Positions 13,044 to 29,709 of a stretch of 64,000 nt of DNA are shown here, piece after piece. The first letter of the stretch is position 1, and every line of letters begins with the position of its first letter. The position numbers were made by a program, and so were the translations under genes. The notes under the pieces are model-generated. The model was not told the origin of the DNA. It searched no databases and worked only from the letters and a program-made list of their open reading frames with translations. Origin of the DNA: Micromonospora chalcea. Its GTDB lineage: Bacteria > Actinomycetota > Actinomycetes > Mycobacteriales > Micromonosporaceae. The stretch covers positions 1 to 64,000 of the forward strand of contig NZ_MAGP01000100.1 in the NCBI RefSeq assembly GCF_002926165.1. Direction: 5' to 3'.

Positions 13044-13781
13044 ATGATGAATGCGAATCGCAATCTGGGGCTGGGGCACGGCAGCGCGTTCGGCGAGCGT
13101 GGGGTGGCGAAGAGGCTCGGCACATTGGGCCGGCACACATCGCTGACCGGCCGGCGATTACTGGAGATCGGCTGCGGGGACGGCACGTACACGATGCGGC
13201 TGGTCGACGCGTTCGCGCAGATCGAGGCCGTCGACATCCAGCAGGATCGGCTGAAACTGTTCCGGGAACGGCTGGCCGGCGATCCGGCGGCGGCCCGGAA
13301 GATCAACGTACGGGAGTTGTCCGCCACCGAGCTGGACTACCCGGACGGCAGCTTCGACCTAGTCACCGCCATCGAGGTGGTGGAGCACATCGACGACCTG
13401 GATGCCGCCCTGCGGCAGGTCCACCGCGTGCTCGTGCCCGGCGGCCGGTTCGCGCTGACGACGCCCAACCGGTGGTTCCCGTTCGAGACGCACGGCTTCC
13501 TGATCCGGGGCCGGCGGTACCGGCCGGCGCGGGGCCCGTTCCTGCCGTGGATCGTGCCGCTACACCGTCGGCTCGCCGACGCCCGTTCCTTCACCGCCCG
13601 TGGCTTGTCCGCGCAGTTGCGGCGGGCCGGGCTGGAGCCGATGGCGGTGGACTACATCATGCCGCCGTTCGACAGGTCCCGCTTCGGGCGTCGCATCCGG
13701 CCGGTGACCGACGCGATCGAACGCTCGCCGTTGAAGTTCTTCGGCATGGCCCTGGCGGTGGTGGCTCGCCGACCGGCATGA
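13044..13781 (+). CDS. Class I SAM-dependent methyltransferase
   Basis: 245 residues. Motif I is LLEIGCGDGTYT (about 39-50), the acidic ribose-binding position is EAVDIQ, and motif IV-like DLVTAIEVVEHIDD and post-motif LVPGGRFALTTPN are all present, so a Methyltransf_11-type fold binding S-adenosylmethionine is clear. The acceptor is not evident; the Arg-rich region 150-175 (GRRYRPARGP) may contact a lipid or saccharide. It stands alone between a terminator and the cupin gene. Two ATGs in tandem (13044, 13047) leave the start ambiguous by one residue. Confidence 0.85.
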   Translation: MMNANRNLGLGHGSAFGERGVAKRLGTLGRHTSLTGRRLLEIGCGDGTYTMRLVDAFAQIEAVDIQQDRLKLFRERLAGDPAAARKINVRELSATELDYPDGSFDLVTAIEVVEHIDDLDAALRQVHRVLVPGGRFALTTPNRWFPFETHGFLIRGRRYRPARGPFLPWIVPLHRRLADARSFTARGLSAQLRRAGLEPMAVDYIMPPFDRSRFGRRIRPVTDAIERSPLKFFGMALAVVARRPA

Positions 13782-13863
13782 CGACGAGCGCCCCAGGTTT
13801 AGCGGGACTCTCGGTGGCTATGAGGGGAATCGATCCGCAGACCGACGATCGAGGAGAGAGCCG

Positions 13864-14382
13864 ATGGCCAGCGGTGCGATCCCGTCCGACGATCCGACCC
13901 GCACCCTCGTCCACGCCCGGCCCGACGACCCCGGCCTCGCGCACCTCGCCATCGCGGGCGGCACCTACACGATCCTGGTCACCGGCGAGCAGACGGCCGG
14001 CCGGTACTGCCTGATCGACATGCGGGTTCCGCCGGGTGGTGGGCCGCCTCCGCACCGGCACGACTTCGAGGAGATGTTCACGGTGCTCGACGGGGCGGTG
14101 GAGTTCACGTTCCGGGGCGAGCAGACCGTCGCGCGGGCCGGGGAGACGGTGAACATTCCGGCGAACGCGCCGCACTTCTTCCGCAACTCCTTCGACCAGC
14201 CGGCGCGGCTGCTGTGCATGTGCACGCCGGCCGGGCAGGACGAGTATTTCCTGCGCGTCGGCGACCGGGTGGACGGCCCCACTTCGCCGCCGCCGGCTCT
14301 CACCGAGGAGGAGCAGACCGAGCGCCGGAACCGGGCCGCCGCGCTGGCCGCCGACTACCGCACGGAGTTGCTGATCGGCTGA
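13864..14382 (+). CDS. Cupin-domain protein
   Basis: 172 residues; ATG with AGGAGAG upstream. Central conserved cupin motif 1 reads GPPPHRHDFEEMFTVLDG, carrying the HxH...E metal ligands, and motif 2 is PANAPHFFRNS with a further histidine, so a single double-stranded beta-helix binding a metal is expected. The C-terminus is an acidic/Arg helix. Members include dioxygenases, isomerases and small-molecule sensors; the substrate cannot be assigned. It is monocistronic, with a bidirectional terminator shared with the xylanase gene downstream. Confidence 0.85.
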   Translation: MASGAIPSDDPTRTLVHARPDDPGLAHLAIAGGTYTILVTGEQTAGRYCLIDMRVPPGGGPPPHRHDFEEMFTVLDGAVEFTFRGEQTVARAGETVNIPANAPHFFRNSFDQPARLLCMCTPAGQDEYFLRVGDRVDGPTSPPPALTEEEQTERRNRAAALAADYRTELLIG

Positions 14383-14412
14383 CACCGGCAGCACGCGAGC
14401 ACCACGAAAGCA

Positions 14413-14446
14413 GCTCACCGCCGTGGCCGAGACCACGACGGTGAGC
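14413..14446. terminator. Bidirectional hairpin between cupin and xylanase genes
   Basis: Arms 14413-14426 (GCTCACCGCCGTGG) and 14433-14446 pair at 13 of 14 positions with a six-base loop, between two convergent stops. Confidence 0.75.
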
Positions 14447-14464
14447 CGTTTCCGTACGCGAAGG

Positions 14465-16105
<1,641 letters not shown>

Positions 16106-16206
16106 TCAATGTCGATGTCGACGCGAACATGGACTCAACCGGCTGATCAGCGCGGGAGTCCATGGATGACCGTGCGAGCGAAGGGCGCCGAGAAGCGCGA
16201 GCACGA

Positions 16207-16219
16207 CCGAAAGTTTCGG
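16207..16219. promoter_or_regulatory. Palindrome CCGAAA-G-TTTCGG
   Basis: A perfect 13-base palindrome between the HxlR stop (16228) and the xylanase gene, 258 bases upstream of the xylanase start. It contains the CGAA-N-TTCG-type core seen in actinomycete xylan regulation and may be an operator; no hairpin-forming length, so not a terminator. Confidence 0.45.
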
Positions 16220-16227
16220 GGATCCGG

Positions 16228-16656
16228 TCAGTGACCGGCGGCGTCGTACCGCTCGCGGTTGGCGTGCACCTCGTCCATGTGCGCCTCGGCCCACAGCTTC
16301 ATGCCGTACATCAGCTGGTGCAGCGACTGACCGAGGTCGGTCAGCTCGTAGGTGACAGTCACCGGCACGCTCGGCGTCACGGTCCGGGTGACAAGGCCGT
16401 CGCGTTCCAGTGAGCGCAACGTCTGGGTGAGCATCTTCTGGCTGACCCCGGCCAACCGCCGCGACAGCTCGGAGTAGCGCATGACCCGGGGTTCCGCGTT
16501 GCGGTCGGGCCCGTCGCGGCCGAGCGCGGCCAGGATCAGCGCCACCCACTTGTCGGAGATCCGGTCCAGGAGTTGCCGGCTCGGGCAGCCGGCGAGGAAC
16601 GCGTCGTACTCCTCCCGCGCCTGCGCCCGCCGCTGCGCCGCCGTCTGCGTCGGCAT
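16228..16656 (-). CDS. HxlR-family winged-helix regulator
   Basis: 142 residues. The hallmark HxlR pattern is present: an N-terminal cysteine (CPSRQLLDRISDKWVALILAAL), then the recognition helix region RYSELSRRLAGVSQKMLTQTLRSLERDGLV and the wing, VTYELTDLGQSL. The family controls redox, aldehyde or quinone responses, with the Cys often the sensor. It is divergent from the quinone oxidoreductase gene at 16772, a pairing common for HxlR regulators, so that gene is its likely target. Confidence 0.9.
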   Translation of the reverse strand: MPTQTAAQRRAQAREEYDAFLAGCPSRQLLDRISDKWVALILAALGRDGPDRNAEPRVMRYSELSRRLAGVSQKMLTQTLRSLERDGLVTRTVTPSVPVTVTYELTDLGQSLHQLMYGMKLWAEAHMDEVHANRERYDAAGH

Positions 16657-16771
16657 CGTCCGCGCCTCCTACCCGGGGGTACCCAACGCACTCCGAAGTG
16701 CGTACTTCCCGATGGAAAGTTACCCCTCCATCGTGGAGCAGGGCATCCCTCACGACCAAGGAGACAGAACC

Positions 16772-17676
16772 ATGGGTACGCGTACCTTCCGCACCGCAGT
16801 CGTCCGCACCCCGGGCGGACCCGAGGCCATCGAGATCATCGACGTTCCGCAGCGCGAGCCGGGACCCGGCGAGGTCCGGGTGGACGTCGCGGCGGCACCG
16901 GTCAACCCGGCCGACCTCGGCGTCGTCGGCGGCTTCTTCCACTCGCTGGGGCTCATCCACCAGCCGCACCACACCGGCCTGGGCTGGGACTTCGCCGGTG
17001 TCGTCGCCGCGGCCGGGCCGGGCGTCGATTTCGCCGTCGGCACCCCTGTCGCCGGGCTGGTCGGCGGGTTCGACCGCGACTTCGGCACGTACGCCGAGCA
17101 ACTCGTCGTACCAGTGGCCGACCTGGCCGTCGTACCCGATGATCTGGACCTGGTGGCGGCGGCGACAGTGCCGCTCAACGGCCTGACCGCGGCGCAGATC
17201 GTCGACCTGCTCGGCGACCCGCCCGCCGGCGGCCGGCTGCTGGTCACCGGCGCGGCCGGCGCGGTCGGCGGCTACGTCGTGCCGCTCGCCCGGGACCGGG
17301 GATGGCGGGTTACCGGCCTGGCGCGGGCCGGGGACGAGAAGTTCGTGCGCGGGCTCGGCGCCGACTTCACCACCGCCGCCGAGCCGGGCTGGGACGCGGT
17401 CGCCGACGCCGCGGCGCTCCAGGACCGAGGGCTCGCGCTGGTGGGCGACGGCGGCGTGTTCGGCCGAACGCCCACCCGGCCGCCGAACGCGGTGTCACGG
17501 TGCGCGCGGTCGAGGTGCACGCCGACGGGACACGCCTGGCCGACCTGCTCGCCCGCACCGCCGCCGGTGAGCTGCCGGCGCGGGTGCACGCGGTGGTGCC
17601 GCTGGACCGGGTGGCGGACGCCCACCGGGCGGCGGCCGAGGGCGGGGTACGCGGACGCTACGTGCTGCGCCCCTGA
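16772..17676 (+). pseudogene. Zinc-independent quinone/NADP oxidoreductase (MDR), frameshifted
   Basis: The ATG follows AAGGAGA. Residues 1-220 are a normal medium-chain dehydrogenase: the GroES-like domain with GEVRVDVAAAPVNPADL, then the Rossmann motif LLVTGAAGAVGGYVVPLA. Near 17460-17490 the reading frame shifts: upstream residues end ...DRGLALVGDGGVF, and the expected C-terminus (GVTVRAVEVHADG ... DRVADAHRAAAEGGVRGRYVL) continues in another frame to a stop at 17674-17676. One base appears lost, so the product would be truncated or fused to an abnormal tail. It could also be a sequencing error. Neighbour to the HxlR regulator on the opposite strand. Confidence 0.8.
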
Positions 17677-20600
17677 TCAGCAGCGCACCGCCACCCGAGC
17701 GACCGCACGGTCCGCGGCCTCGGGTGGCAGGTCGCTCCGGCCGTCGACGTCCAACGCCAGCAGGCCCTGATCCAGACCGACGAGCAACGTTCCGTCGACA
17801 GTGCAGCACGTCAGCGCCGGGTGATAGACGGGGATGGTGTGCAGCGCCCGTCCGGTGGACGGGTCCCAGATCCGCACCGTCCGGTCCCGGCTGGTCGAGG
17901 CGAGCAGATCCCGCCCGCCGACCCGCACCAGGCTCAGCCCGGTTACGGCAGCCGTGTGGCCGGTGAACACGTCCACGGGCTCACCCCACTCGGCGTCCCA
18001 CAGACGGATCGTGTGGTCGGCGCTGGCCGACGCCAGCATCCGGCGACCCGCCACGACCAGGCCGCAGAGCGCGGTGACCGCGTCCTGATGTCCCTGCCGG
18101 GTCCAGACCGGCGTGTCACCACCGCCCCACAGCATCACCGTGCCGCTCTTGTCGGCCGAGGCGAGCGCCTCCACCTCGGGCCACCGAACCGTCGCGAGGG
18201 CCGTCACCCAGGCACGGGTGACGTGCCCGAGCAGGACCGCCCGCACGGTGCCGGTCTGCGGGTGCCAGAGCCGGATGGCCTGGTCGTCGCCGGCCGACGC
18301 GACGAGCGTCTCACCGCCGATGACGATCGGGCAGACCGCCGCCACCGGAGCGTGATGCTCGGTCATCTCCCCCACCAAGGCGCTGTGCCGCACACTCCAG
18401 GTTCCGACCGTGTTGTCGTCCTGGGCGGTGACGAGCAGCGGCTCCTCGACGTCGGCGACCGCGCACATCGCGTTCACCGGCCCGCCGGGTGTCGGGATCT
18501 CCCGCAGCCGCTCGCCCGTGGCGGCGTCCCAGATCCGCACCCGGCCGTCGGCACCGCCGGAGGCGACCAGGCCCGGTCGCTCGTCAGGGACCGCGCAGAG
18601 GCTGTGCACGGGCCCGAGCCGGTCCCGCTCGGCGACCGTGTCGGGTCGGCCGCCGGCCGGGTCCCACAGCCGCACGGTGCCGTCGTCACCCGCCGTCGCC
18701 AGCATCCGGTCCTTCGCCGTACGCAGCTCGCAGACCGCACGGATCCAGCTCGCGTGCCCCCGCAGGCTCGGCCGGCTCGTCCACGTCGGCACGTCCCAGA
18801 CCCGGATGAGCCCGTCCTCACCCGTCGACACGAGCAGACAGCCCTCGTCGACCTCGACCGTGCACAGATCCGTGACCGGTCCACCGGTGGCAAGGACGTG
18901 GACGCATTCGCCGCTCTGCGGGTCCCAGAGCCGGACCGTGCCGTCGTAGCCGGCCGAGGCGAGCAACGTGCCACCCGGCGCTCGAACGGCGTAGAGCGTG
19001 GTCACCCAGCCGACATGTCCGGTGAGGGTCAGCGTCGGGCGCGTGTCGGCCGTCGGCTCCCAGACCCGGACCACGCCGTCGAAGCCGGTGGAGGCGAGCA
19101 GGTGCCGGCCGTCCGACGGGACGTACGTCACGGCCGTCACCCAGCCCGAGTGTCCGGTCAACGCGTAGCGCTGCGTCCCGGTCACCGGATCCCAGATCCG
19201 GACCGTCCGGTCGTCGCCGGCCGAGGCGAGCAGGTCGCCGTCCGGCAGTGGAATGACGCAGATGTTGCGGACCCAGTCGTCGTGCCCGCTCAGTTCGTGC
19301 CGACGCTGGCCGGTCCGGGGATCCCACAGGCCGACGGTCCCGTCGTGGCTGGCGGTGGCGATCAGCGTCTCGCCGCCGCCGGTACGGACAGCGCACAGCC
19401 CGCGGATCGTGTCGTTGTGACACGGGAAGACTCCCACGGCCTGGTTGGTCATCGGGTCCCAGAGCCGGACCGTGCCGTCGTCACCGGCGGAGGCGAGCAA
19501 CCACCGATCGTCCAGCTCGACGGCCGCCACGTCGTAGACGGCCTGCGAGTGCCCGTCCAGCACGCTGCGCTCCTGCCGGGGCGGGGTGTGCGCCCAGCGC
19601 GCGCGGTACGGCGCGCCGTCGGCCTCGATCCCGCTGCCCAGTCCGTCGAGCCGGTCGACGACCGAGAAGAGGGCGGCGCGCTCGGCCGGTGCCGCCGCGA
19701 CCGCGAGCGGCGTCCGGTGCAGCAGCCGCACCCGTGATCGGGACAGCGGCTCCAGCGGTCTCTCCATGTCGACGACCGAGAGCAACCGCTCCAGGTGCGC
19801 GTGCAGGAGGTAGCCCTCGTCGGCGAGGAGCCGCTCCACGAGCCCGGCGCGGGAGGCGTGCTGGGGCAGGGAGCGCCGTAGGTAGTCGGGCACCGAGGCC
19901 CATCCCACCTCGGCCGCCAGGTCCGCCCAGGCGGCGACCAGCCGTCGCTGGTCGTCCCGGCGTGACGCGCCGTCCAACAACGCGTCGTTGAGGGCCTGGT
20001 GGAACAGGCGGTACGCGGGCCGGCTGCCGCCACCGGTCTCGACCAGGAAGTTCGCCGCCGACGTACGGGCGAACGCGAGGAGTTCGTCCTCGGTGACCGT
20101 GCCGCCGAGCGCGGTCACCGCGATCCGCCAGAGCGACAGCGGCAGACCCGGCGTCTCGGCGTACGCCAGGGCGGTGAGGGCGAGCCGGGCGGAGGCCGAG
20201 CCGGCAGCCGGCAGCCCGGCCAGATAGGAGTCGAGCGCATGGGCCACTGTCGCGCTGAACGACACCGACGCCGGGTCGACGGGCTCGATGTCGCGCAGCG
20301 CGTGTGCCCGTGCGACGAGACCGGCCACCAGGAAGTTTCCCTTCGCCAGCTCGGCGATCCGGCGCGCCAGCGGGACAGCCGCCGCCGAGTCGCTGTACGG
20401 GTTGCCCGGTCGTTCCGCGCCGAGCAGTCGCAGGGTCGCCAGGGCGTAGTTCACCAGATCGGCCCCGGCGAAGTACTCCGGTGTGTCCAGATCCACCAGC
20501 TCGACCGGATCACCGAAGCAGGCGATCAGGTCACCCCGGTCGTCGCCGCGCCGGGTGCCGACAACCACCCGCACGCCGTACCGGCCGCACTCCCGGGCCA

Positions 20601-21780
20601 GCGGCAGCAGGACGTCGTCGATGACCTGCCGGGCCTGACCGGGGTCGGCCGTCTCGTCCAGCGCATCGATGACGAGCGCGAAGCGAGCCGGACGCCGCGC
20701 CAGCCGGTCCCGCACGGCCGGCATCAGATCGGCCGGCGCACCGGGCAGGTCGACGGCGGCCGCCCGGGCGATCTCGAGCGCCACCTCCAGCGCGGTCTTG
20801 CCCTTGGCGTGCACGGCGCAGGACACCGAGCCGACAGTGGCCCGTACGGCGGTGTCGCCGCCCGGCAGGCTGTCCCGGATCTGCTGGTCGGCCGTGGTCA
20901 CCACGCGGCCCAGGACGGCGGACTTGCCGACGCCTGGCGAACCCGTGACGATCAGCGGCCGGGTGGCGGGCGCCTTCCCGTCGATGAAGTCGACGATCCG
21001 CCGGAGCGCGGCCGTACGACCCCGGAACCGCGCGCCGCCCTCGGTGTCCACGGCGACGCCCCGCGCCCGGGGCAGCCAGTGCCGGCCGGCCTCACCGTCG
21101 GTGCTCAACGTCCACCCCCAGGCCGATAGCGCGGCGTCGTCGGCGTCCTCGACCCGCCAGGCCGACAACGCGCCCAACGTCATCGCCGGCACCTGCTCGT
21201 CGACGTGGTGCAGCGTCACCGCCTGCCCCTTGCCCTTGCCGTCGGCCGTGACGACGACGCCGACCACCGCCTGGTACTCCGGGGACCACAACGCGCCCCC
21301 GCTGAACCCCTTGCTGAGCGGCCCGGCAGCGCCGCTGTCGATGGTGACGCGGCCGTACCCGCCGTCTTCGACGACGGAACCGGTCGCCTGCAGGCCGCCG
21401 ACCACCCCGGCCGGGAAGCCGTACGCCCAGAAGGGGCGGTCGAGCAGCGGCTTGGGGGCGAGGCAGCGCAGCCGCGCCGGGGTGACGGTCGCCGGCACCG
21501 GCTCGACGAGTTCGAGCACCACCACGTCGACGTGCGCCGCCGGCATGCCGTCGTGCCGGCACCGGCGGACCTTGCGCCGGTCGAAGTAGGCGACCTTGGG
21601 CGCGCGCGGGAAGGCGACAGTGAGATCGGGGCGGAGGGTGCCGTCGGCGGCGAACGCCACGTGGTGGCAGGTGAGCACCAGGTTGGCGGCGATGACGATG
21701 CCGGTGCCGAGTGCCGTGTGCGGGTCCGCCTCACGGTGCAGGGCAACCGCCCACGCGCTCTCGTCCGGGGCCGTTGTCAC
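17677..21780 (-). CDS. Trypsin-like protease-STAND NTPase-WD40 protein
   Basis: 1367 residues from a GTG at 21780. Residues 1-230 form a trypsin-fold protease with an intact triad H40 (TCHHV), D85 (HVDVVVLE) and S160 (GFSGG). The STAND/NACHT-like NTPase follows, with Walker A GSPGVGKS at 280-287 and Walker B ALVIDALDE around 368-376, then helical winged regions to about 735. The C-terminus has 13 clear WD40 repeats plus a degenerate fourteenth, enough for two seven-bladed propellers, probably the ligand sensor. No signal peptide; acts in the cytoplasm. The family logic is sensing by the propellers, NTP-driven oligomerisation and protease activation; it is followed upstream by a Trypco1-like partner. 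Such STAND-protease proteins are placed among prokaryotic conflict and multicellularity systems; the trigger here is unknown. Confidence 0.9.
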   Translation of the reverse strand: MTTAPDESAWAVALHREADPHTALGTGIVIAANLVLTCHHVAFAADGTLRPDLTVAFPRAPKVAYFDRRKVRRCRHDGMPAAHVDVVVLELVEPVPATVTPARLRCLAPKPLLDRPFWAYGFPAGVVGGLQATGSVVEDGGYGRVTIDSGAAGPLSKGFSGGALWSPEYQAVVGVVVTADGKGKGQAVTLHHVDEQVPAMTLGALSAWRVEDADDAALSAWGWTLSTDGEAGRHWLPRARGVAVDTEGGARFRGRTAALRRIVDFIDGKAPATRPLIVTGSPGVGKSAVLGRVVTTADQQIRDSLPGGDTAVRATVGSVSCAVHAKGKTALEVALEIARAAAVDLPGAPADLMPAVRDRLARRPARFALVIDALDETADPGQARQVIDDVLLPLARECGRYGVRVVVGTRRGDDRGDLIACFGDPVELVDLDTPEYFAGADLVNYALATLRLLGAERPGNPYSDSAAAVPLARRIAELAKGNFLVAGLVARAHALRDIEPVDPASVSFSATVAHALDSYLAGLPAAGSASARLALTALAYAETPGLPLSLWRIAVTALGGTVTEDELLAFARTSAANFLVETGGGSRPAYRLFHQALNDALLDGASRRDDQRRLVAAWADLAAEVGWASVPDYLRRSLPQHASRAGLVERLLADEGYLLHAHLERLLSVVDMERPLEPLSRSRVRLLHRTPLAVAAAPAERAALFSVVDRLDGLGSGIEADGAPYRARWAHTPPRQERSVLDGHSQAVYDVAAVELDDRWLLASAGDDGTVRLWDPMTNQAVGVFPCHNDTIRGLCAVRTGGGETLIATASHDGTVGLWDPRTGQRRHELSGHDDWVRNICVIPLPDGDLLASAGDDRTVRIWDPVTGTQRYALTGHSGWVTAVTYVPSDGRHLLASTGFDGVVRVWEPTADTRPTLTLTGHVGWVTTLYAVRAPGGTLLASAGYDGTVRLWDPQSGECVHVLATGGPVTDLCTVEVDEGCLLVSTGEDGLIRVWDVPTWTSRPSLRGHASWIRAVCELRTAKDRMLATAGDDGTVRLWDPAGGRPDTVAERDRLGPVHSLCAVPDERPGLVASGGADGRVRIWDAATGERLREIPTPGGPVNAMCAVADVEEPLLVTAQDDNTVGTWSVRHSALVGEMTEHHAPVAAVCPIVIGGETLVASAGDDQAIRLWHPQTGTVRAVLLGHVTRAWVTALATVRWPEVEALASADKSGTVMLWGGGDTPVWTRQGHQDAVTALCGLVVAGRRMLASASADHTIRLWDAEWGEPVDVFTGHTAAVTGLSLVRVGGRDLLASTSRDRTVRIWDPSTGRALHTIPVYHPALTCCTVDGTLLVGLDQGLLALDVDGRSDLPPEAADRAVARVAVRC

Positions 21781-21795
21781 GGGCCGAGCCGTCCG

Positions 21796-22125
21796 TCAGC
21801 GCCGTGGACCGGCACCGCGATCGGTGGGGCCGTCCGGCTGCCAGGCGAGGGTGACCTCGAAGTTCGCCTCTCCGGTCGCCTTCGCCACCACCCAGCTCGC
21901 CGTGCCGGTGGCCTTGATCCCGAAGCGCACCTCCACCGCGTCGGGAGAGACGGTCTTGACCTGTTCCAGCAATTCCCGGGCGGCGGCGACCGCCGGTGCC
22001 GCGGATTCGCGTACCCAGCCGGCGACGTCGCCGAAGCCTGCGGGCTGGAAACCGGGTGTCGGCTCGACTTCGATCAAGGCAACCGTTTCGTCGTCGACCT
22101 GGTAGCGGACCACCTCAGACTGCAC
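21796..22125 (-). CDS. Trypco1-like (CU044_2847-type) partner of the protease-STAND protein
   Basis: 109 residues from GTG 22125, chosen since GGAGG sits five bases upstream; an ATG at 22284 would add 53 residues of low-quality sequence. The protein is compact and mixed alpha/beta: VVRYQVDDETVALIEVEP, a helix APAVAAARELLEQV, then VEVRFGIKATGTASWVVAKATGEANFEVTLAW. This matches the trypsin-co-occurring domain 1 pattern known beside trypsin-domain conflict proteins (family recalled, not searched). It ends 15 bases before the protease-STAND gene, so the two are co-transcribed and probably form a regulator or substrate pair. Confidence 0.8.
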   Translation of the reverse strand: MQSEVVRYQVDDETVALIEVEPTPGFQPAGFGDVAGWVRESAAPAVAAARELLEQVKTVSPDAVEVRFGIKATGTASWVVAKATGEANFEVTLAWQPDGPTDRGAGPRR

Positions 22126-22500
22126 GGTCACCTCCGTGACGTATTTCTGGAGAACAGGCAGGAGGGTTCGCGGCGGAGCAGAACTCCGGCCCTCTCGCCG
22201 GTCTGCCATGCTGCCCGCTGTCCTTGTCATTTCGCAATGGTCGGGTCGACCGACCGCGCCGAAGCCGCCGAACAGGCGTTTCAATCGAGGCGTCCACGCA
22301 GGACCGTTGGAGATCCACTACGCGGCCCTGTCGGCTTTCGTCAGCGAGATCGGTGACCTTGCGCGAGTCCGGCGCCGTCGGCAGAATCGGCCCGTGCGCC
22401 GGGGCCGTCCCCGTTGCCCACCTCGATCATGGCCACCCCTTCCGAGCCTTCGATCACACCGTCGACGCGGTGGGAGCTCGTGCCGCAGAGGAGCATCCGC
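22126..22500. other. Divergent intergenic region of the conflict locus
   Basis: 375 bases between two divergent operons and no credible gene. It holds GGTCG-GGTCGAC-CGACC (22239-22255), an imperfect dyad that might be an operator. Promoters for both directions must lie here but I could not assign boxes. Confidence 0.4.
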
Positions 22501-23163
22501 ATGCCGGAAAAGGAACTGACCCTCGTCGACCGGTGCATTCTTGTCACGCTGATGGTGAAGGCGGCACCTCTGCCGCAGGCTTACCTCAGAAATGTCGCCG
22601 GGATCGGTCTGAAGCCGGAGCACCGCCGTCGACTTGAAGCACTCGGCCTGATCGAGGTCACCGAGAAGCCGCGGATTGTTCTAGCTCTCACTGACGAAGG
22701 GTGGGAGCGGGCCACCGAGGAGTTGGGCGCAGAGCCGCCGAAGCGCGCAGGCACGGCGGGCGGAACGCTCTACGTGGCGCTCGACTTCCTGCGCCGGCTG
22801 ATCGACCATTCCGGGACCCGCGCCGACGACCTGTTCCGGATGCAGATCAACCGGGACGAGGTCGTCGCGCCGCCGCCGGTGGCGTCGTCGGCGTCCCCGG
22901 CCGCGGACGCGGTCACGCTGATCCGGCAGGCGTACCACGAGCTGGCCGCCAAGCCCGGCGACTACGTCATGCTGGCCGATCTTCGCGACGCCCTCTCCGA
23001 CCTGCCCCGCCCCGAGTTCGACGCCGCGCTCGTGACGCTCAACCGGGAGCGCGGCGTGCACCTGGTGCCCGAGTCCAACCAGAAGGTGCTGAAGCCGCAG
23101 GAGCGGGCGGCGGCGGTGACCATCGGCAACCAGGACAAGCATCTGGTCGCCATCTCGTCATGA
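22501..23163 (+). CDS. Two-winged-helix protein partnered with a dual ATPase
   Basis: 220 residues. The ATG at 22501 is preceded by GAGGAG; an ATG further upstream at 22414 lacks one. The N-terminus (about 1-75) looks like a winged helix (RCILVTLMVKAAPLPQAYLRNVAG ... GLIEVTEKPRIVLALTDEG), and the C-terminus (about 130-210) a second one (LRDALSDLPRPEFDAALVTLNRERGVHLV), with an Ala/Pro linker between. It may bind DNA or act as a scaffold. The stop overlaps the ATG of the following ATPase gene by four bases, so stoichiometric synthesis is likely. No closer family recognised. Confidence 0.7.
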   Translation: MPEKELTLVDRCILVTLMVKAAPLPQAYLRNVAGIGLKPEHRRRLEALGLIEVTEKPRIVLALTDEGWERATEELGAEPPKRAGTAGGTLYVALDFLRRLIDHSGTRADDLFRMQINRDEVVAPPPVASSASPAADAVTLIRQAYHELAAKPGDYVMLADLRDALSDLPRPEFDAALVTLNRERGVHLVPESNQKVLKPQERAAAVTIGNQDKHLVAISS

Positions 23164-26100
23164 TCGGTGACGAGCAACGCCGTGCCCTGGCGGCGCTGAG
23201 GTTCAACTGGGCTCCGACCCCGGACGACGTCTGGAAACCCACACCGTTCCACGTGGAGGGTCTGCACCACGACGTCGTCACGACGGTGCTGGACAGCTTC
23301 GCGGAGGCTCAGGCCAGCACCGACTCCAGTCCGGTGGGCGTGGCCATCCTCGGCCAGCGCGGCACCGGCAAGACCCACCTCATCGGCACGGTCCGCCAGC
23401 AGGTGCAGGGACGCGGCGGCTTCTTCTTCCTGGTCGAACTGCTCGAAGCCCGGACGTTCTGGCAACGCACCGCGATCTCGATGCTGGAGGGCCTGGTCCG
23501 TCCGATGCCGGACGAGACGACCCAGCTACGGGCGTTCCTGCGCCGGCTGGCCGACGCGGTGGGTGCGCCCCGGACGGTACGGCGCGCGGTCGCCGGTGAG
23601 ACCGAACTCAGCCGTCCGGCGCTCGACGCCTTCGTCGACCTGATCCGCAAGAAGGACCGGCAGATCGGCACGGAGTGCCAGGACACCGCGCGGGCCCTGG
23701 TGCTCTACGCGGCCGAGCAGTCAGCCGTGCAGGACATCGGCTACGACTTCCTCTCCTCGATGGACGAGGAGGAGCCCGGCCAACGGGCCGGGTGGGGGCT
23801 GCGGCGCAATCGTCGTGCGCCCCAGGAGGTGGTCCGGGACATCTCCCGGCTGCTCGCCGTCGTCGGCCCGACCGTGATCGCGGTGGACCAGATCGACCTG
23901 ATGATCGCCCAGTCCGTGAAGGCCACGAACCAGGACGCCCGGGGCGAGGCCGACTGGCAGACCTCGCTCCTGCTCGAACAGGTCGCCAGCGGTCTGATGG
24001 CGCTGCGCGAGACCACTCGCCGGACGCTGTCCGTCGTCTCGTGCCTGCCGCACACCTGGTACAGCATCCGGCAGCAGGCGACGGACACCGTCCAGGACCG
24101 GTTCCGGGAGGCCGCCCCGCTCAAGGAGATCCCCTCCGTCGAGGTGGGCCGCGAGCTGGTCGAGAAGCGGTTCGCGGTGCTTTTCGAGGGACTCGGGTTC
24201 ACCCCGCCGCACCCCACCTGGCCGGTCCACCCGGACGCGTTCCAGGAGGTTGTCGGCTTCACCCCTCGTGAGCTGCTACGGCGGATCGACACGCACGTCC
24301 GGGCCTGCCTGGCCGACGGCGAGGCGCGGGAACTGCGGCACCTGCTGCACACGAGCGGCGAGCGCGTCGCCGGGGATATCGCGCCCGCCACGGTCACCGG
24401 GCCGCCACCGGAGAGCCGGACGAACGGATTCGGCAAGCTCGACGCCCGGTACGCGGAGCTGGTCGCCGCCGCCGACACCGCCCTGTCCCCGCAGACGGAG
24501 GACGCCCGCGTCCCGCGCCTGCTCGAAGCCGGCCTGACCGCGTGGATCGCCGCGCAGGGCGCGGCAGTCGACGCGTTCAGCCTCGACCCGATCCCCGCCG
24601 GAACCAAGCCGGCGCTGCACGCCCGGCTACGGCACAGCCTGAGCGAGGACAGCGAGGACGAGGAGCACTGGTCGTTCCGGGCGATCTCCGCGCCGCACCA
24701 CATCGCCGTGCTCAACCGGATCCGCAACGCGATCACGACCGCCGGACTCACCGAGGGGGTCGCCAAACGACGGCTCTTCCTGCTGCGCAGCGCGGAGTGG
24801 TCGGCCGGTGCCCGTACCCGTGAGGTGCTTGACGCGTTCGAGCGGGCCGGCGGTCGGCGGCTTCCCCTGGACGCGCCGGACGTCGCCCGGCTGGCCGCGC
24901 TCGAACAACTCATCCAGGACTACGGGCGGGAGACGCTGCGGCCCTGGTTCGCCGATCGCCGGCCGGCGTCCCACATCACCTGCCTACGGGAGGCACTGGG
25001 CGACTGGCCGGGTGCGCCGGAAGCCGTCCGGACCGAGGAGCGGCCAGAGGAGGCGCCGGACCGACCCCCGGTCGGGACGCCACCGCCGGTCACCGCTGCA
25101 CCGCGCTCCGCCGGTCCCGTCCCGACGCCGCGCTCCGCCGGGCTCGACCCGGCGCCGCCGGTGGTCGCTCCCCTGCCACCGGTGGCGGGCATCGACCCGG
25201 AGCGGATGGAGATCGGCACTGTCACCGGGCGGCCCGAACCGGTCGGCCTCGACCTGGAAGCGCTGCGCCGGCACACAGTCATCTTCGCCGGCTCCGGTTC
25301 CGGCAAGACCGTACTGATCCGCCGCCTGGTCGAGGAGTGCGCCCTGCGCGGCGTGTCGGCCATCGTGCTCGACCCCAACAACGACCTGGCCCGGCTCGGC
25401 GAGACCTGGCCCGCCGCACCGCCGGGCTGGGGCGCGGACGACGCCCGCCGCGCGGCGGAATATCTGGCCGGCACCGACGTGGTCGTCTGGACGCCGGGAC
25501 GGCAGGCCGGTCGGCCGTTGAGCTTCCAGCCGTTGCCGGCCTTCGCCGACGTGCTCGACGACCCGGACGGGTTCACCTCGGCCGTCAACGCCGCCGTCGC
25601 CACGCTCGCCCCGCACGCCCGGGTGGACGGCGGCACCGACAAGGCCCGGCTCGGCCGGGCCGTGCTGCGCGAGGCGCTGATCGGCTACGCCCGCAGCGGC
25701 GCGAGTGACCTGCGTGAGTTCACCGACGTCCTCAACGATTTACCGGACGGGGTGAGTCAGCTCGACAGCGCGCCCAAGCTGGCCGCCGGCATGGCCCAGC
25801 TGCTCAAGGCCGCCCTGATCAACGATCCGCTCCTGGGCGGCGTCGGAACGCCTGTCGACCCGGGCGAGCTGCTCACCCCGCCCCCCGGTCGCCGCGCCCG
25901 GGTCTCGGTGATCAACCTCGCCGGGTTGCCCGAGGACAATCAGCGGCAGAGCTTCGTCAACCAGTTGCAGCTCGCCCTGTTCACCTGGATCAAGCGTCAT
26001 CCGGCCGGGGACCGGCCACTCGGTGGACTCTTCGTCATGGACGAGGCGCAGACGCTGGCCCCGTCCGGCGCCGTGACCGCCTGCACCCAGAGCACGCTCG

Positions 26101-26426
26101 CGCTGACCTCGCAGGCCCGCAAGTACGGGCTGGGGCTGGTCTTCGCCACCCAGGCGCCGAAGGCGTTGCACAACCAGATCCCCGGCAACGCCGCCACGCA
26201 GTTCTTCGGCCTGCTCACCGTGCCGGTGCAGATCGAGGCGGCCCGGGATGTGGCCAGGGCGAAGGGCACCGACGTCCCGGACATCGGCAAGCTGCGTACC
26301 GGCCAGTTCTACGCCGCGGTCGAGGGGGCCCGGTTCGTCAAGATGCAAGCTCCCATGTGCCTGACCTACCATCCCCGCAGCCCGCTGACCGCTGAGGAGA
26401 TCGTCCGGCTCGCGACGCTCAGGTGA
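23160..26426 (+). CDS. Dual ATPase: AAA-type module plus HerA/FtsK-like module
   Basis: 1088 residues, ATG overlapping the upstream stop. The first NTPase has Walker A GQRGTGKT (65-72) and Walker B VIAVDQIDLM (239-248), an Orc/AAA_16-like arrangement with a long helical region to about 620. After a Pro-rich linker (about 620-680) a second NTPase carries GSGSGKT (711-717) and Walker B VMDEAQ with D961/E962, like HerA/DUF87 DNA translocases; the motif region QARKYGLGLVFATQAPKALHNQIPGNA is typical. It likely forms a ring that moves or remodels DNA. The combination with a winged-helix partner beside a protease-STAND operon suggests a conflict/defence module, which is inference. Its stop overlaps the convergent ABC permease gene by eight bases. 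Confidence 0.8.
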   Translation: MIGDEQRRALAALRFNWAPTPDDVWKPTPFHVEGLHHDVVTTVLDSFAEAQASTDSSPVGVAILGQRGTGKTHLIGTVRQQVQGRGGFFFLVELLEARTFWQRTAISMLEGLVRPMPDETTQLRAFLRRLADAVGAPRTVRRAVAGETELSRPALDAFVDLIRKKDRQIGTECQDTARALVLYAAEQSAVQDIGYDFLSSMDEEEPGQRAGWGLRRNRRAPQEVVRDISRLLAVVGPTVIAVDQIDLMIAQSVKATNQDARGEADWQTSLLLEQVASGLMALRETTRRTLSVVSCLPHTWYSIRQQATDTVQDRFREAAPLKEIPSVEVGRELVEKRFAVLFEGLGFTPPHPTWPVHPDAFQEVVGFTPRELLRRIDTHVRACLADGEARELRHLLHTSGERVAGDIAPATVTGPPPESRTNGFGKLDARYAELVAAADTALSPQTEDARVPRLLEAGLTAWIAAQGAAVDAFSLDPIPAGTKPALHARLRHSLSEDSEDEEHWSFRAISAPHHIAVLNRIRNAITTAGLTEGVAKRRLFLLRSAEWSAGARTREVLDAFERAGGRRLPLDAPDVARLAALEQLIQDYGRETLRPWFADRRPASHITCLREALGDWPGAPEAVRTEERPEEAPDRPPVGTPPPVTAAPRSAGPVPTPRSAGLDPAPPVVAPLPPVAGIDPERMEIGTVTGRPEPVGLDLEALRRHTVIFAGSGSGKTVLIRRLVEECALRGVSAIVLDPNNDLARLGETWPAAPPGWGADDARRAAEYLAGTDVVVWTPGRQAGRPLSFQPLPAFADVLDDPDGFTSAVNAAVATLAPHARVDGGTDKARLGRAVLREALIGYARSGASDLREFTDVLNDLPDGVSQLDSAPKLAAGMAQLLKAALINDPLLGGVGTPVDPGELLTPPPGRRARVSVINLAGLPEDNQRQSFVNQLQLALFTWIKRHPAGDRPLGGLFVMDEAQTLAPSGAVTACTQSTLALTSQARKYGLGLVFATQAPKALHNQIPGNAATQFFGLLTVPVQIEAARDVARAKGTDVPDIGKLRTGQFYAAVEGARFVKMQAPMCLTYHPRSPLTAEEIVRLATLR

Positions 26427-27213
26427 TGTCGCGGCGCATCGGGACGACCACGGCGATCGCGGCTGCGGCGAGCGCGTACCCGGTCAGCAGCAGTGCGCCG
26501 GCCGCCGGCGGCAGGAGCGCGACGGCGTCGCTGCCGAGCTGCGCGGACATCGCGTCGGCGACGTACGTGAAGTCGGTGAGCGCGGCGGTGGCGCCGCCGG
26601 GCAGGAGCGGGTAGAGCGCGTTGACGCCGGGGATCATCATCAGTACGGGCTCGGCCAGGTACAGGTAACCGACCACGACGCACACGGCCGCGACCTGGTT
26701 ACGGAGCAGCGCGCCCACGCCGGTGCCGACGAGCAGGTACACCGCCATCGCGACGCCGATGCGGGCGAGCAACGCCAGCACCGTGGGAGCGGGCAGGCCC
26801 AGCGACACGCCACGCGCGGCGGCGACTGTGAAAAGGGCCGCCGCGGCGGCGACGGCGAGCACGAGGCCGTAGGCGAGGCCGACGATCGCGTGGGTGGCGA
26901 GTTTGGCGGCCAGCACCCGCCCTCGGCGCGGCGCGAACATGAACGTGACGGCGGCGGTGCCGTGCCGGTGCTCGGACGTGGCCGCGAGGGCGCCGGCGGC
27001 GGCCGGCACGAAGGCGGTGAAGCCGAGGATGCCGAGGATGGACCGCAGGCCCTCCTCGGTGTGCAGGCCGGGCATCGGCGGGTCGAAGTTCTCCGGCCCG
27101 ACGAGCGCCATGAGCCCGACCAGGCCGCCGCCCAGCGCGACGGCCGCGAGCAGCAGCCCGGTCCACATGCGGGTGGCCAGGACCCGGCGTAGTTCCGCTC
27201 TGATCAGGTTCAT
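26419..27213 (-). CDS. ABC-2 type transporter permease
   Basis: 264 residues, ATG overlapping the ATPase gene stop (ATGA). Six hydrophobic segments can be seen, starting with MWTGLLLAAVALGGGLVGLMAL, consistent with the ABC-2 membrane subunit of an export system. EHRHGTAAVTFMFAP between the second and third segments matches the family's cytoplasmic coupling region. It is the last gene of the operon regulator-PH-like-ATPase-permease, encoded leftward. Substrate unknown; such systems often export drugs or lantibiotic-like compounds. Confidence 0.88.
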   Translation of the reverse strand: MNLIRAELRRVLATRMWTGLLLAAVALGGGLVGLMALVGPENFDPPMPGLHTEEGLRSILGILGFTAFVPAAAGALAATSEHRHGTAAVTFMFAPRRGRVLAAKLATHAIVGLAYGLVLAVAAAAALFTVAAARGVSLGLPAPTVLALLARIGVAMAVYLLVGTGVGALLRNQVAAVCVVVGYLYLAEPVLMMIPGVNALYPLLPGGATAALTDFTYVADAMSAQLGSDAVALLPPAAGALLLTGYALAAAAIAVVVPMRRDIT

Positions 27214-28115
27214 CGGGCCTCCGCCGTCTCGGTGGTCAGGTCGAGGAAGAGCTGTTCGAGGCTTGTGGTCTCGGTGACCAGCTCGTGGACCCGCACGCGA
27301 TGGGCCGCGGCCAGGTCGGCGACGCGCGGCGCGTCCAGTCCGCGTACCCGCAGGCGGTCGGGCCCGGCGGCCTCGACGGACCCGGCGGCGGCCGCCAGCG
27401 CGGCGGCCAGGGCTGTCGTGTCCGGCGAGGTGACGAGCACCGTCGGCGGGCCGGTGAGCCGCGACCACGGCCCGGCGGCGACGAGTTCGCCGCGCCGGAT
27501 CACCACCACGTCGTCGACCACCTGCTGGACCTCGTGCAGGACGTGGCTGGAGACCAGTACGGTGCGGCCCTCGTCGGCGAGGCGGCGCAGCAGCCCGCGC
27601 AGCCACGACATGCCTTCCGGGTCCAGGCCGTTCGACGGTTCGTCGAGCAGCAGGACGCGCGGGTCGCCGAGCAGCGCCGTGGCGAGGCTGAGCCGTTGCC
27701 GCATGCCGGTGGAGAACCCCCGGGTACGACGGTCGGCGGCCTGCGCGAGGCCGAGCAGATCCAGCAGTTCCGCGACCCGGCTGTCCGGGCAGCCGGCCAT
27801 CGCGGCGTAGACGCCCAGGTGGTCACGGGCGGTGTGGCCGGGGTGGAACGCGTTGCCGTCGAACACCGCGCCGACGGTCCGTGCCGGCTGGGCCAGCCGG
27901 CCGTAGGGCTGCCCGCCGATCGTGGCGGTGCCGCTGGTGGGCGTCACCAGCCCGGTCAGCATGCGCATCGTGGTGGTCTTGCCGGCGCCGTTCGGGCCGA
28001 GGAAGCCGGTGACCGCGCCGGGTCGTACGGTGAAGGTCAGGTCGCGTACGGCGGTGACGTCGCCGTAGCGTTTGGTCAGGCCTGACGCCTCGATCGCCAG
28101 GTGGTCGCCGGTCAT
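27210..28115 (-). CDS. ABC transporter ATP-binding protein
   Basis: 301 residues. Walker A GPNGAGKTTT, Q-loop region, signature GFSTGMRQRL in the ABC position and Walker B VLLLDEPSNGLDPEG are all intact, with the H-loop VSSHVLHEV. About 230 residues form the nucleotide-binding domain and the last 70 a DUF4162-like tail common in DrrA/CcmA-type exporters. It pairs with the permease (four-base overlap) and follows a small PH-like protein (four-base overlap), so all are translationally coupled. Likely drug or antimicrobial exporter; energises the permease at the membrane. Confidence 0.93.
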   Translation of the reverse strand: MTGDHLAIEASGLTKRYGDVTAVRDLTFTVRPGAVTGFLGPNGAGKTTTMRMLTGLVTPTSGTATIGGQPYGRLAQPARTVGAVFDGNAFHPGHTARDHLGVYAAMAGCPDSRVAELLDLLGLAQAADRRTRGFSTGMRQRLSLATALLGDPRVLLLDEPSNGLDPEGMSWLRGLLRRLADEGRTVLVSSHVLHEVQQVVDDVVVIRRGELVAAGPWSRLTGPPTVLVTSPDTTALAAALAAAAGSVEAAGPDRLRVRGLDAPRVADLAAAHRVRVHELVTETTSLEQLFLDLTTETAEAR

Positions 28116-28483
28116 GGCCGGCCCCGCGTCGCACGCCCGATCGTCTCGGCGAGGCCCGGCGCGGCCGGGTCGGAGACCACCACCTCGTCGAACTCGCCGC
28201 CGGCCGCCGCGCGGTCCAGCACCAGGTGCAGGCCGGGCTGACCGCGCCGGGCCGCCACGAGCTGCCGGGGACCGCCGAACAGACCCCAGACGCCGATCTT
28301 GGCGAAGCCGGACACGGCGTACCCGCGCCGGGCGCCCCGGGCCAGCCGGATCGGCTCGTCCACCGGGGCGGCGTGCCGCACGGCGGCCAGGCGCAGCGCG
28401 AACCGCTCCCGCCCGACCCACATCCGCTCCCATCCGGTGAACCGGATGTCGATCACATCGCCGTTGAGCATTACGGAGGCCAT
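28112..28483 (-). CDS. Small conserved protein, possible bacterial PH-like fold
   Basis: 123 residues, beginning MASVMLNGDVIDIRFTGWER. Alternating hydrophobic strands, an RGARRGYAVSGFAKIGVWGLFGGPRQL central part and a C-terminal helix suggest a mainly beta fold, possibly PH-like, but the family is not certain. No signal peptide or membrane helix. It sits between the regulator (one-base overlap) and the ABC ATPase (four-base overlap). Role in the exporter unit unknown. Confidence 0.65.
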   Translation of the reverse strand: MASVMLNGDVIDIRFTGWERMWVGRERFALRLAAVRHAAPVDEPIRLARGARRGYAVSGFAKIGVWGLFGGPRQLVAARRGQPGLHLVLDRAAAGGEFDEVVVSDPAAPGLAETIGRATRGRP

Positions 28484-29085
28484 CAGTCGTCGCCCTTCGT
28501 CGTGTCGGAGTCGTGCGCTGACGTGTGCGTGTCGCCGGGGGTCGCCGGGCGATCGGCGGGCATCAGGACGGTCGCCAGCAGCCGGGGGATCCGGCCGTCG
28601 CCGGGCCCTCTGGCGAGCAACGGGCCGACCAGCGCGTTGAGCCCGGCCGCGAACTCGTGCAGCTCGGCGTCGGTCAGGTGCAGTACGAGCTGCTGGTATC
28701 CGACCCCGTCGGCGACGAAGTCGACGCGGTCGCGGGCGAGGTAGCGGGAGAACTCGGACAGCAGGCTCGACACGAACGCGGTGAAGTAGCGCGCGTGGTC
28801 CTCCGGCGTGGCCGTGGCCAGGGCCGCCGGGTCCAGCGCCGCGCCGTGCGCGGGCAGCGCATACACCCGCTCGACGGCGCCGCGCACCTTGCGCTCCTGC
28901 ACCACGTCGAGCATCCCGGCCTTCACGAGCGTCGCCAGGTGCCGGTAGAGCGTGGCGTGCGGGACGTCGGGCAGCAGCTCGGCCAGGTCGTGAGTGGTCA
29001 CCCGGGTGCCCGCCACGGCACGCAGGACGCGGAGCCGCACCGGGTGCAGCGCCACCTCCGCCCACCGCTCCATCGACATCGCCAT
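28483..29085 (-). CDS. ArsR/YdfL-like winged-helix regulator of the ABC operon
   Basis: 200 residues. Residues 1-85 are a winged helix (ALHPVRLRVLRAVAGTRVTTHDLAELLPDVPHATLYRHLATLVKAGMLDVV), ArsR/YdfL-like. The rest is a helical effector region (about 90-165) with an acidic Asp/Thr-rich tail. It heads the four-gene export operon with one-base overlap to the next gene. A perfect 20-base palindrome is located 10 bases upstream of its start, so autoregulation with drug-responsive derepression is likely. Confidence 0.88.
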   Translation of the reverse strand: MAMSMERWAEVALHPVRLRVLRAVAGTRVTTHDLAELLPDVPHATLYRHLATLVKAGMLDVVQERKVRGAVERVYALPAHGAALDPAALATATPEDHARYFTAFVSSLLSEFSRYLARDRVDFVADGVGYQQLVLHLTDAELHEFAAGLNALVGPLLARGPGDGRIPRLLATVLMPADRPATPGDTHTSAHDSDTTKGDD

Positions 29086-29095
29086 GACCGAACCG

Positions 29096-29115
29096 TATCA
29101 CTATCGATAGTGATA
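29096..29115. promoter_or_regulatory. Perfect 20-base palindrome, likely operator
   Basis: TATCACTATC followed by its reverse complement GATAGTGATA, 10 bases before the regulator's ATG; AT-rich in a GC-rich genome. Expected binding site of the regulator encoded at 28483-29085. Confidence 0.75.
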
Positions 29116-29155
29116 TAGGTAGGGAGTGGGGCGACCGGGCGCGAAAGCCGGACGA

Positions 29156-29617
29156 TCAGACGGACGGACGGGTGTGGTGGGCCAGCACCCGAGCAAGGAG
29201 CCGGGTCAGGTCCGCCCGCTCGTCCGGCGTCAGCGGCGCGAGCAGGTCGTCCTGCACCTCGGCGAGTCGCTTCTCCAGCCGCCGCAACTGCCGCCGCCCC
29301 GCCGCGGTGATGGTGACGACGTTGCGCCGCCGGTCGGACGGGTCCGGGGCGCGGACCACGAACTCCCGCTCGGCGAGCTCGTTGAGGGCCGCCACCACGT
29401 CGCTGACGTGGATGCCGCTACGCCTGCCGAGCGCCGCCTGACTGGCCGGACCGAACTCGTCGAGCGTGGCGAGCAGCCGGAAGTGGTAGCCCCGCGCGTC
29501 GACCGCCGCCAGCCCGTCGCTCACCAGCCGGCCGGCGCGTACGGCGGTCTGGGTGATCAGCCAGCTCGGCAGGCCGGCCAGGCGGGTGGGTACGACGTCC
29601 GGCTCCGGGTTCTCCAC
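29156..29617 (-). CDS. MarR-family regulator
   Basis: 153 residues. The MarR winged helix is complete: [66 protein letters not shown], with the conserved DxRRxxVxLT-like wing ([10 protein letters not shown]). The ATG at 29617 stands 92 bases from the divergent epoxide hydrolase start. Two 22-base sites with CGTTgG/CcAACG arms lie between them. It probably represses the hydrolase and itself and responds to a small phenolic or epoxide-linked ligand; the ligand is not known. Confidence 0.92.
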
Positions 29618-29635
29618 ATGCCCAGCCTACCCAAA

Positions 29636-29700
29636 AACGTTGGCACCCCCAACGATCTGCGCTATCGTTCGTCGCACAAACGTTAGTGACACCAACGATC
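29636..29700. promoter_or_regulatory. Two related 22-base operator-like sites
   Basis: 29636-29657 and 29679-29700 share AACGTT-n-G...CCAACGATC; each has inverted arms (CGTTGG/CCAACG perfect in the first, one mismatch in the second). They are centred 43 bases apart, about four helical turns, between the MarR and epoxide hydrolase genes. Confidence 0.7.
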
Positions 29701-29709
29701 GGAGCTACC

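Follow-up and report, generated by a model that had tools for sequence, protein, structure and literature searches.

Trypco1 was defined as a domain often found next to trypsin-like peptidases in the MoxR-vWA-VMAP ternary conflict systems (Kaur et al. 2020, PMC7159879), and has later been called an adapter (PMC10907252). HerA motors are described in HerA/FtsK capture systems together with an ORC/CDC6 ATPase, a winged helix-turn-helix (wHTH) protein and a restriction endonuclease (PMC10853773), in BREX-related systems (PMC12839542), and in the HerA-DUF4297 anti-phage complex, whose effector is a PD-(D/E)xK nuclease in direct complex (PMC11291478). CARD-NLR systems and LypABC join a trypsin-like peptidase to an ATPase domain, and there proteolysis activates a separate effector protein (PMC13236601); trypsin domains are named in other STAND settings as well, with no mention of Trypco in the excerpt concerned (PMC8195603). 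Here we describe a locus in 64,000 nucleotides of Micromonospora chalcea (assembly GCF_002926165.1, contig NZ_MAGP01000100.1, positions 1 to 64,000; hereafter the window), in which a Trypco1 gene and a gene for a trypsin-like protease fused to a STAND nucleoside triphosphatase (NTPase) and WD40 repeats run divergently from the genes of a wHTH protein and a HerA ATPase. We propose, with confidence that is about evenly balanced, that the locus is a horizontally moving conflict (defence-type) cassette of four genes, built on a HerA motor, whose output is exchangeable and is here proteolytic, with Trypco1 as the client of the protease.

As in the MoxR-vWA-VMAP systems, a PF19493 protein neighbours a trypsin-like peptidase, and the conflict context is linked to an NTPase. 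Unlike there, STAND-WD40 is fused to the peptidase, and wHTH and HerA make up the remaining half of the locus (PMC7159879). A MoxR/vWA setting was considered and ruled out, since Pfam reports neither MoxR nor vWA for any of the four genes that the inserted unit comprises. HerA occurs once in the text of PMC7159879, in the reference list. The initial annotation of this DNA had placed the protease and its small partner among NTP-dependent conflict systems; the naming of Trypco1 beside trypsin-like peptidases agrees with this, while the MoxR-vWA-VMAP context in which that was described is not matched here. With the HerA/FtsK capture systems (PMC10853773) the cassette has in common its mobility, a HerA motor joined to an AAA domain, a protein of wHTH type (predicted in our case) and, in sister cassettes only, a nuclease-like partner. 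The AAA and HerA parts are fused in one polypeptide, a fusion for which that paper allows. The difference is that a Trypco1/trypsin-STAND-WD40 module takes the place of the nuclease, no nuclease match being found in the cassette. In the main texts of PMC10853773 and PMC12839542, the words "trypsin" and "Trypco" have 0 occurrences.

The HerA-DUF4297 complex (PMC11291478) likewise pairs a HerA ATPase with an effector enzyme, and coupling between motor and effector may be supposed by analogy; unlike that complex, the cassette would pair HerA with a protease module, and neither DUF4297 nor SIR2 has a Pfam or PADLOC match in the four cassette proteins. Similarly to CARD-NLR and LypABC (PMC13236601), the cassette joins a trypsin-like peptidase to an ATPase domain. 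In contrast with the CARD-NLR gasdermin systems, only Trypco1 stands beside the protease and Pfam reports no gasdermin in the cassette proteins; HerA was not found in the excerpted account of CARD-NLR/LypABC. Likeness to MADS is at the level of the motor only, which is matched by the profile of the HerA-like ATPase mad8, and unlike MADS the cassette is without a methylase: among 20 Pfam-scanned proteins, two of them the cassette's own, the sole methyltransferase (13044-13781) is of the ubiE type and not a DNA methylase. In the open-licence literature, with subscription papers and preprints mostly outside its scope, the cassette (HerA-protease, trypsin-STAND-WD40, Trypco1) is undescribed among the matches listed, and nothing was found for CU044_2847. 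Excerpts of the papers naming Trypco1 held no test of its function. Hence the kinds of component are already known, and what we report as new is their grouping and the linked loss of Trypco1 and the catalytic triad, neither of which was found in the open-licence literature searched.

Four genes inserted as one unit

The cassette comprises the following features:

17677-26411, no single strand: whole cassette, four genes and a shared divergent control region (blastn against locus L262)
17677-21780, minus strand: trypsin-like protease–STAND NTPase–14 WD40 protein, 1367 amino acids, GTG start
21166-21780, minus strand: protease domain, residues 1-205 (PF13365 and PF00089 above cut-off)
21661-21663, 21526-21528 and 21301-21303, minus strand: triad codons H40, D85 and S160, in this order
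19576-21063, minus strand: STAND NTPase and helical linker, residues 240-735 (Walker A TGSPGVGKSA, Walker B LVIDALDE)
17746-19563, minus strand: WD40 region, residues 740-1345, 13 canonical repeats and one degenerate
21796-22125, minus strand: Trypco1, 109 amino acids, GTG start preceded by GGAG (PF19493, NF041216)
22126-22500, no strand: divergent control region, aligned over six orthologous intergenic regions
22501-23163, plus strand: predicted two-winged-helix (wHTH) protein, 220 amino acids (AlphaFold2 model and fold search)
23160-26426, plus strand: AAA-HerA double ATPase (P0004), 1088 amino acids, start overlapping the wHTH stop by 4 bases

The insertion is exact. By blastn, window positions 13770-17676 correspond to L262 9010-12907 at 93.4% and positions 26412-29999 to L262 13005-16593 at 94.8%, and between these flanks L262, from the related genome G610, has 97 bp and no cassette match. 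A search of G610 gave no protease-STAND match either. The flank edges are sharp, and thus the extra 8.7 kb of the window consist solely of the four genes with the control region common to them; the HerA stop codon (26424-26426) falls within the right-hand flank match. When the two cassette edges were compared, the longest shared words were 8 bases (direct) and 9 bases (inverted), the length that random pairs give. All four genes occur together in the first five same-genus orthologous loci. Two of the loci compared, L042 and L043, have none of the tested flanking genes in common with the window, and in L041 the cassette adjoins two genes which the window has some 3 kb farther to the right. The initial annotation had taken the protease and its small partner as a pair; both genes are real, yet the unit is of four genes and includes the divergent wHTH and HerA genes, which had been overlooked.

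The protease–STAND–WD40 protein itself bears out what had been read from the letters, in its coordinates as in its triad, STAND NTPase and 14 WD40 units. Within residues 1-235, Trypsin_2 (PF13365) reaches 37.5 bits (cut-off 27.6) and Trypsin (PF00089) 27.5 bits (cut-off 20.6), and H40, D85 and S160 are all present and invariant in an alignment of the window protein with five orthologues; judged from these residues the triad is intact and active-looking. Residues 236-745 match AAA_16 (33.5 bits, cut-off 32.6), NACHT (27.6, cut-off 26.7) and nSTAND1 (27.1, cut-off 27.1), all at or barely above cut-off, and the STAND Walker A and B motifs are retained in 18/18 aligned rows (17 distinct loci, as L052 repeats L042). 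WD40 repeats (PF00400, E 1.5e-78) number 12 by significant match and 14 when counted by eye, the final one being degenerate, from which two seven-bladed propellers may be deduced. In three orthologue comparisons the WD40 part diverges slightly less than the protease domain, and so there is no sign of a hypervariable sensor. Sequence searches of the PDB with the protease and STAND parts gave no matches, and PADLOC reported for this protein only a weak RT-Protease_XI match (15.5 bits). An apparent premature stop in the protease gene of genome G003 was ruled out, being an ordinary stop beyond which the tblastn alignment had run. The source genome also has a second very large WD40 open frame of 1954 codons at a contig end (G000:C24:113416-115281).

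For Trypco1, the stop lies 15 bases ahead of the protease gene start and the profile scores are far above the thresholds, with 64.8 bits for PF19493 (cut-off 24.6) and 63.9 for NCBIfam NF041216 (cut-off 23). What had been called a Trypco1-like partner 15 bases ahead is therefore a member by hidden Markov model, and it also adjoins a trypsin-like peptidase gene, as the family definition has it. In the three nearest orthologues Trypco1 is conserved at 100, 100 and 98%, against 95, 95 and 94% for protease-STAND; in two farther ones the values are 82 and 56% against 80 and 62%, with no clear difference. A supposed Trypco1 fusion in G415:C34 (an open frame of 1100 amino acids) was ruled out, as the frame ahead of Trypco1 looks non-coding. 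Another contig of the source genome, G000:C143 (loci L044 and L045), looks like an assembly palindrome: two stretches near its ends are perfect reverse complements over 19,768/19,768 bases with mirrored coordinates, hence the genome has three distinct Trypco1 genes and not four.

On the opposite strand, the predicted wHTH protein has no Pfam match. Its AlphaFold2 model (predicted local distance difference test, pLDDT, 90.6) finds its nearest PDB folds among winged helices of the MarR, PadR and AspA types, with a best E of 0.007 and none below 0.001, and its sequence is less conserved than that of HerA. The AAA-HerA ATPase consists of an N-terminal AAA domain (Walker A LGQRGTGKTH, Walker B VIAVDQID), a middle domain and a C-terminal HerA motor with the motifs FAGSGSGKT, FVMDEAQ and ATQ. 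DUF87/HerA (PF01935) reaches 50.1 bits (cut-off 23.2) and AAA_22 38.2 (cut-off 27), with ORC-CDC6-like (PF24389) at 14.8 bits against a cut-off of 27. In PADLOC, mad8 and HerA profiles match the motor, mad8 with 65.6 bits on the C-terminal motor of P0004.

These two genes run divergently from Trypco1 and the protease gene. In the control region between them, the block at 22326-22396 (CTGTCGG...TTGCGCG...GTCGGCAGAATCGG) is strongly conserved and is a possible operator or promoter candidate; the region is partly conserved even in a cassette whose protease has 59% identity. By eye, two conserved blocks appear promoter-like: TTGCGC(22359-22364)-N17-CAGAAT(22382-22387) faces wHTH, and TTGCGA(22237-22232)-N18-CAGCAT(22213-22208), which lies on the minus strand, faces Trypco1. 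A consensus scan of the control region gave no sigma-70 site.

Two further observations concern the left side of the cassette. The adjoining gene of a zinc-type quinone oxidoreductase (16712-17767, plus strand) is frameshifted near its 3' end in the window and appears to be broken in two in L039 and L040 as well; in L262 its frame is uninterrupted. It is a pseudogene or carries a sequencing error. Further left lies a C-terminal phage-integrase fragment (5515-5973, minus strand, 34.5 bits).

A constant HerA core with changing partners

HerA relatives were sought in 84,980 species, each represented by a single genome, and of the 294 obtained we kept the best 80. A wHTH gene lies directly ahead of HerA in 80/80 of these, including L060, whose wHTH gene is cut by a contig end, and it is the partner that changes. 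In 60 of the 80 loci the neighbour is of DUF559 type, a protein of about 345 amino acids with a C-terminal endonuclease-like domain; Pfam confirmed DUF559 in 4 of the 60 (37.6-48.9 bits, cut-off 20.6). The protease-STAND-WD40 protein is the neighbour in 12/80 loci, 10 of them with Trypco1. Three loci have a putative NTPase-TPR neighbour without a DUF559 gene and a fourth, L076, carries both, the NTPase-TPR label resting on below-cut-off Pfam matches in 2 of the 4 proteins. TIR and ParA-like neighbours were found in 3/80 loci (L117, L122 and L130), TIR being tested in one of the three (TIR_2, 53.7 bits, cut-off 28). Of the remaining loci, L109 is without any of these partner classes and L060 ends at the contig end. 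In a search of phage records, no HerA relative was found. On a HerA tree of 113 rows, the protease partner corresponds to one change when L060 is left out.

Two side observations belong here. The ParA-like protein of the TIR and ParA loci has a C-terminal part that weakly matches CATASP and TIR_2 (one locus tested). On a plasmid of Tsukamurella tyrosinosolvens (L266 3293-8261), the annotated order is DUF559, hypothetical, DUF87, and these genes, accompanied by a VapB/PIN pair and a helicase, are flanked by genes of ribosomal proteins.

Trypco1 and the state of the protease triad

A protease-STAND profile search of 354 Micromonosporaceae genomes, from which 68 stretches were taken, allowed us to score triad and Trypco1 side by side. 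Rows were the matches reaching the protease domain (weaker STAND-only matches were unused), and after 12 duplicate protease rows had been merged at 98.5% identity, 75 distinct rows remained, equal to 74 loci. An intact triad is accompanied by Trypco1 in 53 of them and lacks it in 6, and the 14 rows with a dead triad are all devoid of Trypco1 (0 with it). One HerA-linked locus, L206 (G639:C5), gave two rows because a frameshift inside the protease domain splits its gene; Trypco1 is kept there, and the split reflects either an error of sequencing or the otherwise missing intermediate, a dead protease with Trypco1. The totals do not include this locus, which is taken as intact only where stated. 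PF19493 and PF19631, run on the 19 genomes concerned, detected neither Trypco1 nor Trypco2 next to the dead loci or to the six intact exceptions. In a second family (394 genomes searched) together with one Streptomyces plasmid, 14 loci all have intact triads, 13 with Trypco1 (for L269 this check used a purpose-built profile only). Three further matches of the family search were scored apart: G543, which reaches the protease domain, and G495 and G476, strong matches without one. Of the three loci thus added, L281 has triad and Trypco1, and L282 and L283 lack both the protease domain and Trypco1. Overall, 90 protease loci show Trypco1 in 67/74 with an intact triad and in 0/16 with a dead or missing protease domain. 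If only HerA-linked loci are taken, the figures are 38/38 intact (L206 counted) and 0/8 dead or domain-less. Within the family, HerA accompanies the protease protein at 46 distinct loci, 38 of which carry all four genes; at L194, L209 and L281, which stop near a contig end, the HerA state is not scorable.

The absence of Trypco1 from every examined locus with a broken protease suggests that the two work together, and Trypco1's work appears to depend on a functioning protease. Since an intact triad without Trypco1 occurs in seven loci and a dead triad with Trypco1 in 0/16 (unless L206 is one), Trypco1 is favoured as a substrate or cofactor over an inhibitor, although few events carry this. An 87-row STAND tree calls for at least 5 changes in triad state and 9 in Trypco1 (4 and 8 changes, respectively, on an earlier tree of 84 rows), and each triad loss falls on a branch devoid of Trypco1. 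Branches of this kind account for 22% of the branch length, or 4.5% if the dead clades are excluded. Because of its long branch L239 was removed from the final trees, L238, L240 and L241 are without a usable STAND match and stand in no tree, and long branches, above all that of L283, are unsure in the STAND tree. A Fisher value of 2e-11 ignores kinship and is not counted as evidence.

When the protease dies, the rest of the cassette may remain. All 7 dead-triad HerA-linked loci retain both HerA ATPase sites, the STAND Walker motifs are retained in both dead-triad HerA loci checked, and L282 retains wHTH, HerA and STAND-WD40 despite its missing protease domain. Thus the machine persists without proteolysis, which points to a use of STAND-WD40 with HerA that is independent of cleavage. 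In the genus group g92 (Asanoa for L058), five loci (L058, L230 and L232-L234) are dead-triad only, with varied replacements of H and S, and the sixth, L282, has lost the whole domain, as if the protease domain had been abandoned for good in this group. L283 (G476:C1) is a STAND-WD40 protein without protease domain, Trypco1 or nearby HerA, and has an unrelated short N-terminus before STAND. Median relative rates of the protease domain are 1.4-1.8 in dead groups and 0.8-1.4 in live ones, overlapping ranges from which no claim is drawn.

Alternative readings and proposed mechanism

Several points weigh against the reading proposed here. The seven intact-triad loci without an adjacent Trypco1, none with HerA in the examined stretch, imply that Trypco1 is not always required, and a second clade of the protease protein, mostly of the same family and without HerA within about 5.8 kb, implies that the protease module can act alone. 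If L060 is counted as an outsider, the protease partner needs two changes on the HerA tree and one clade of 45 rows is rejected (p 0.001), as is expected if L060 belongs among these 45 rows. The AlphaFold2 model of Trypco1 is poor (pLDDT 64) and its fold search returned no match, PADLOC has no match for the cassette as a system, and the cassette may be related to stress or development instead of phage. Furthermore, the chance of the linked losses by branch length, about 5e-4 for five events and 2e-3 for the four on well-supported branches, is rough, and a matched-pairs sign test has only 4 supported pairs (p 0.125).

The last of these points bears on whether Trypco1 absence and triad loss are linked solely by shared ancestry and small numbers. 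The independent changes of triad state are only about 5 and the sign test is as weak as given, nevertheless all losses fall on the Trypco1-less branches with their small share of the tree and contrary loci are 0/16, and we regard this explanation as improbable. A second possibility, to which we give somewhat more room while still finding it unlikely, is that Trypco1 is an inhibitor or immunity protein which silences a toxic protease, as in toxin-antitoxin pairs, and which was lost once the protease was dead and it was no longer needed. The order of the genes, with the small one first and 15 bases ahead, would suit such a role, and so would the presence of Trypco1 in 38/38 HerA-linked intact loci (with L206) and its absence from 16/16 loci with a dead or missing protease domain, as well as its better conservation than protease-STAND in the three nearest orthologues, which is not clear in the two farther ones. 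Nevertheless, the intermediate that an inhibitor predicts, a dead protease with Trypco1 kept, is seen in 0/16 loci, although the frameshifted L206 could be one, and the opposite intermediate, an intact triad without Trypco1, is seen in 7. These counts speak more for Trypco1 as a substrate or cofactor.

Clusters of independent defence genes are common, and the two halves of the cassette might be merely neighbours, that is, two independent defence systems, divergently oriented and co-inherited, with a common promoter region and insertion site. In this sense, independent defence genes often cluster, the protease protein has its clade without HerA nearby, and HerA stands without the protease protein in 67 of 79 judgeable loci among the best 80 of 294. 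On the other side, HerA and the protease protein are joined in 46 distinct loci of the family (38 with four genes) whose neighbours differ where examined, the protease partner corresponds to a single change on the HerA tree once L060 is excluded, parts of the control region persist even in the cassette of 59% protease identity, and the insertion comprises exactly the four genes. Mere neighbourhood is accordingly not probable in our judgement, about on a par with the inhibitor. It is harder to believe that the protease-STAND-WD40 protein serves the development or the cell-envelope stress of mycelial actinobacteria and not a function against invaders. Full-length relatives come mainly from one actinobacterial family (Micromonosporaceae) plus a second family of the same class, and large WD40 proteins are numerous in the genomes of the genus, as such a role might lead one to expect. 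Its presence is patchy, however, with a full-length match in 6/37 Micromonospora genomes searched, the insertion is exact and its sites differ, and sister cores are partnered with a nuclease and with TIR. Taken together, the interpretation first given to this locus is partly supported.

Returning to the HerA-motor cassette with an exchangeable, here proteolytic output, we infer for it an anti-invader role, a trigger, an order of events and a cleavage of Trypco1 along the following lines. The constant core, wHTH and the AAA-HerA double ATPase, would load onto DNA and move along it. Trypco1 and trypsin-STAND-WD40 would form the exchangeable output module, in the position that sister cassettes give to a DUF559-type nuclease, TIR and ParA, or a putative NTPase-TPR protein. 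As trigger, the core would engage invading DNA, or the propellers would bind a foreign or stress ligand, or both. The STAND domain would then oligomerise on nucleoside triphosphate, upon which the trypsin domain would turn active. Trypco1 would be its dedicated client and would most probably act either as a substrate turning into the effector or as a cofactor required for activity, and the outcome would be that the invader or the infected cell is blocked. More tentatively, and with less confidence than in the cassette itself, wHTH-HerA may be a general chassis, whose outputs would be DNA cutting with DUF559, signalling with TIR and ParA, NTPase-TPR, and proteolysis in Micromonosporaceae; Trypco1 as client would then be a new protease-released effector or a co-protease, resembling gasdermin in its logic and not in its fold.

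The natural series of losses, in which an intact triad goes mostly with Trypco1 and a dead or deleted one never does, makes the role of Trypco1 directly and cheaply testable, and the pattern of exchangeable partners offers a ready panel of cassettes for comparison. If the proposal is true, HerA-based immunity would have a broader range of outputs than is known so far, its motor being tied here to a protease and not to a nuclease.

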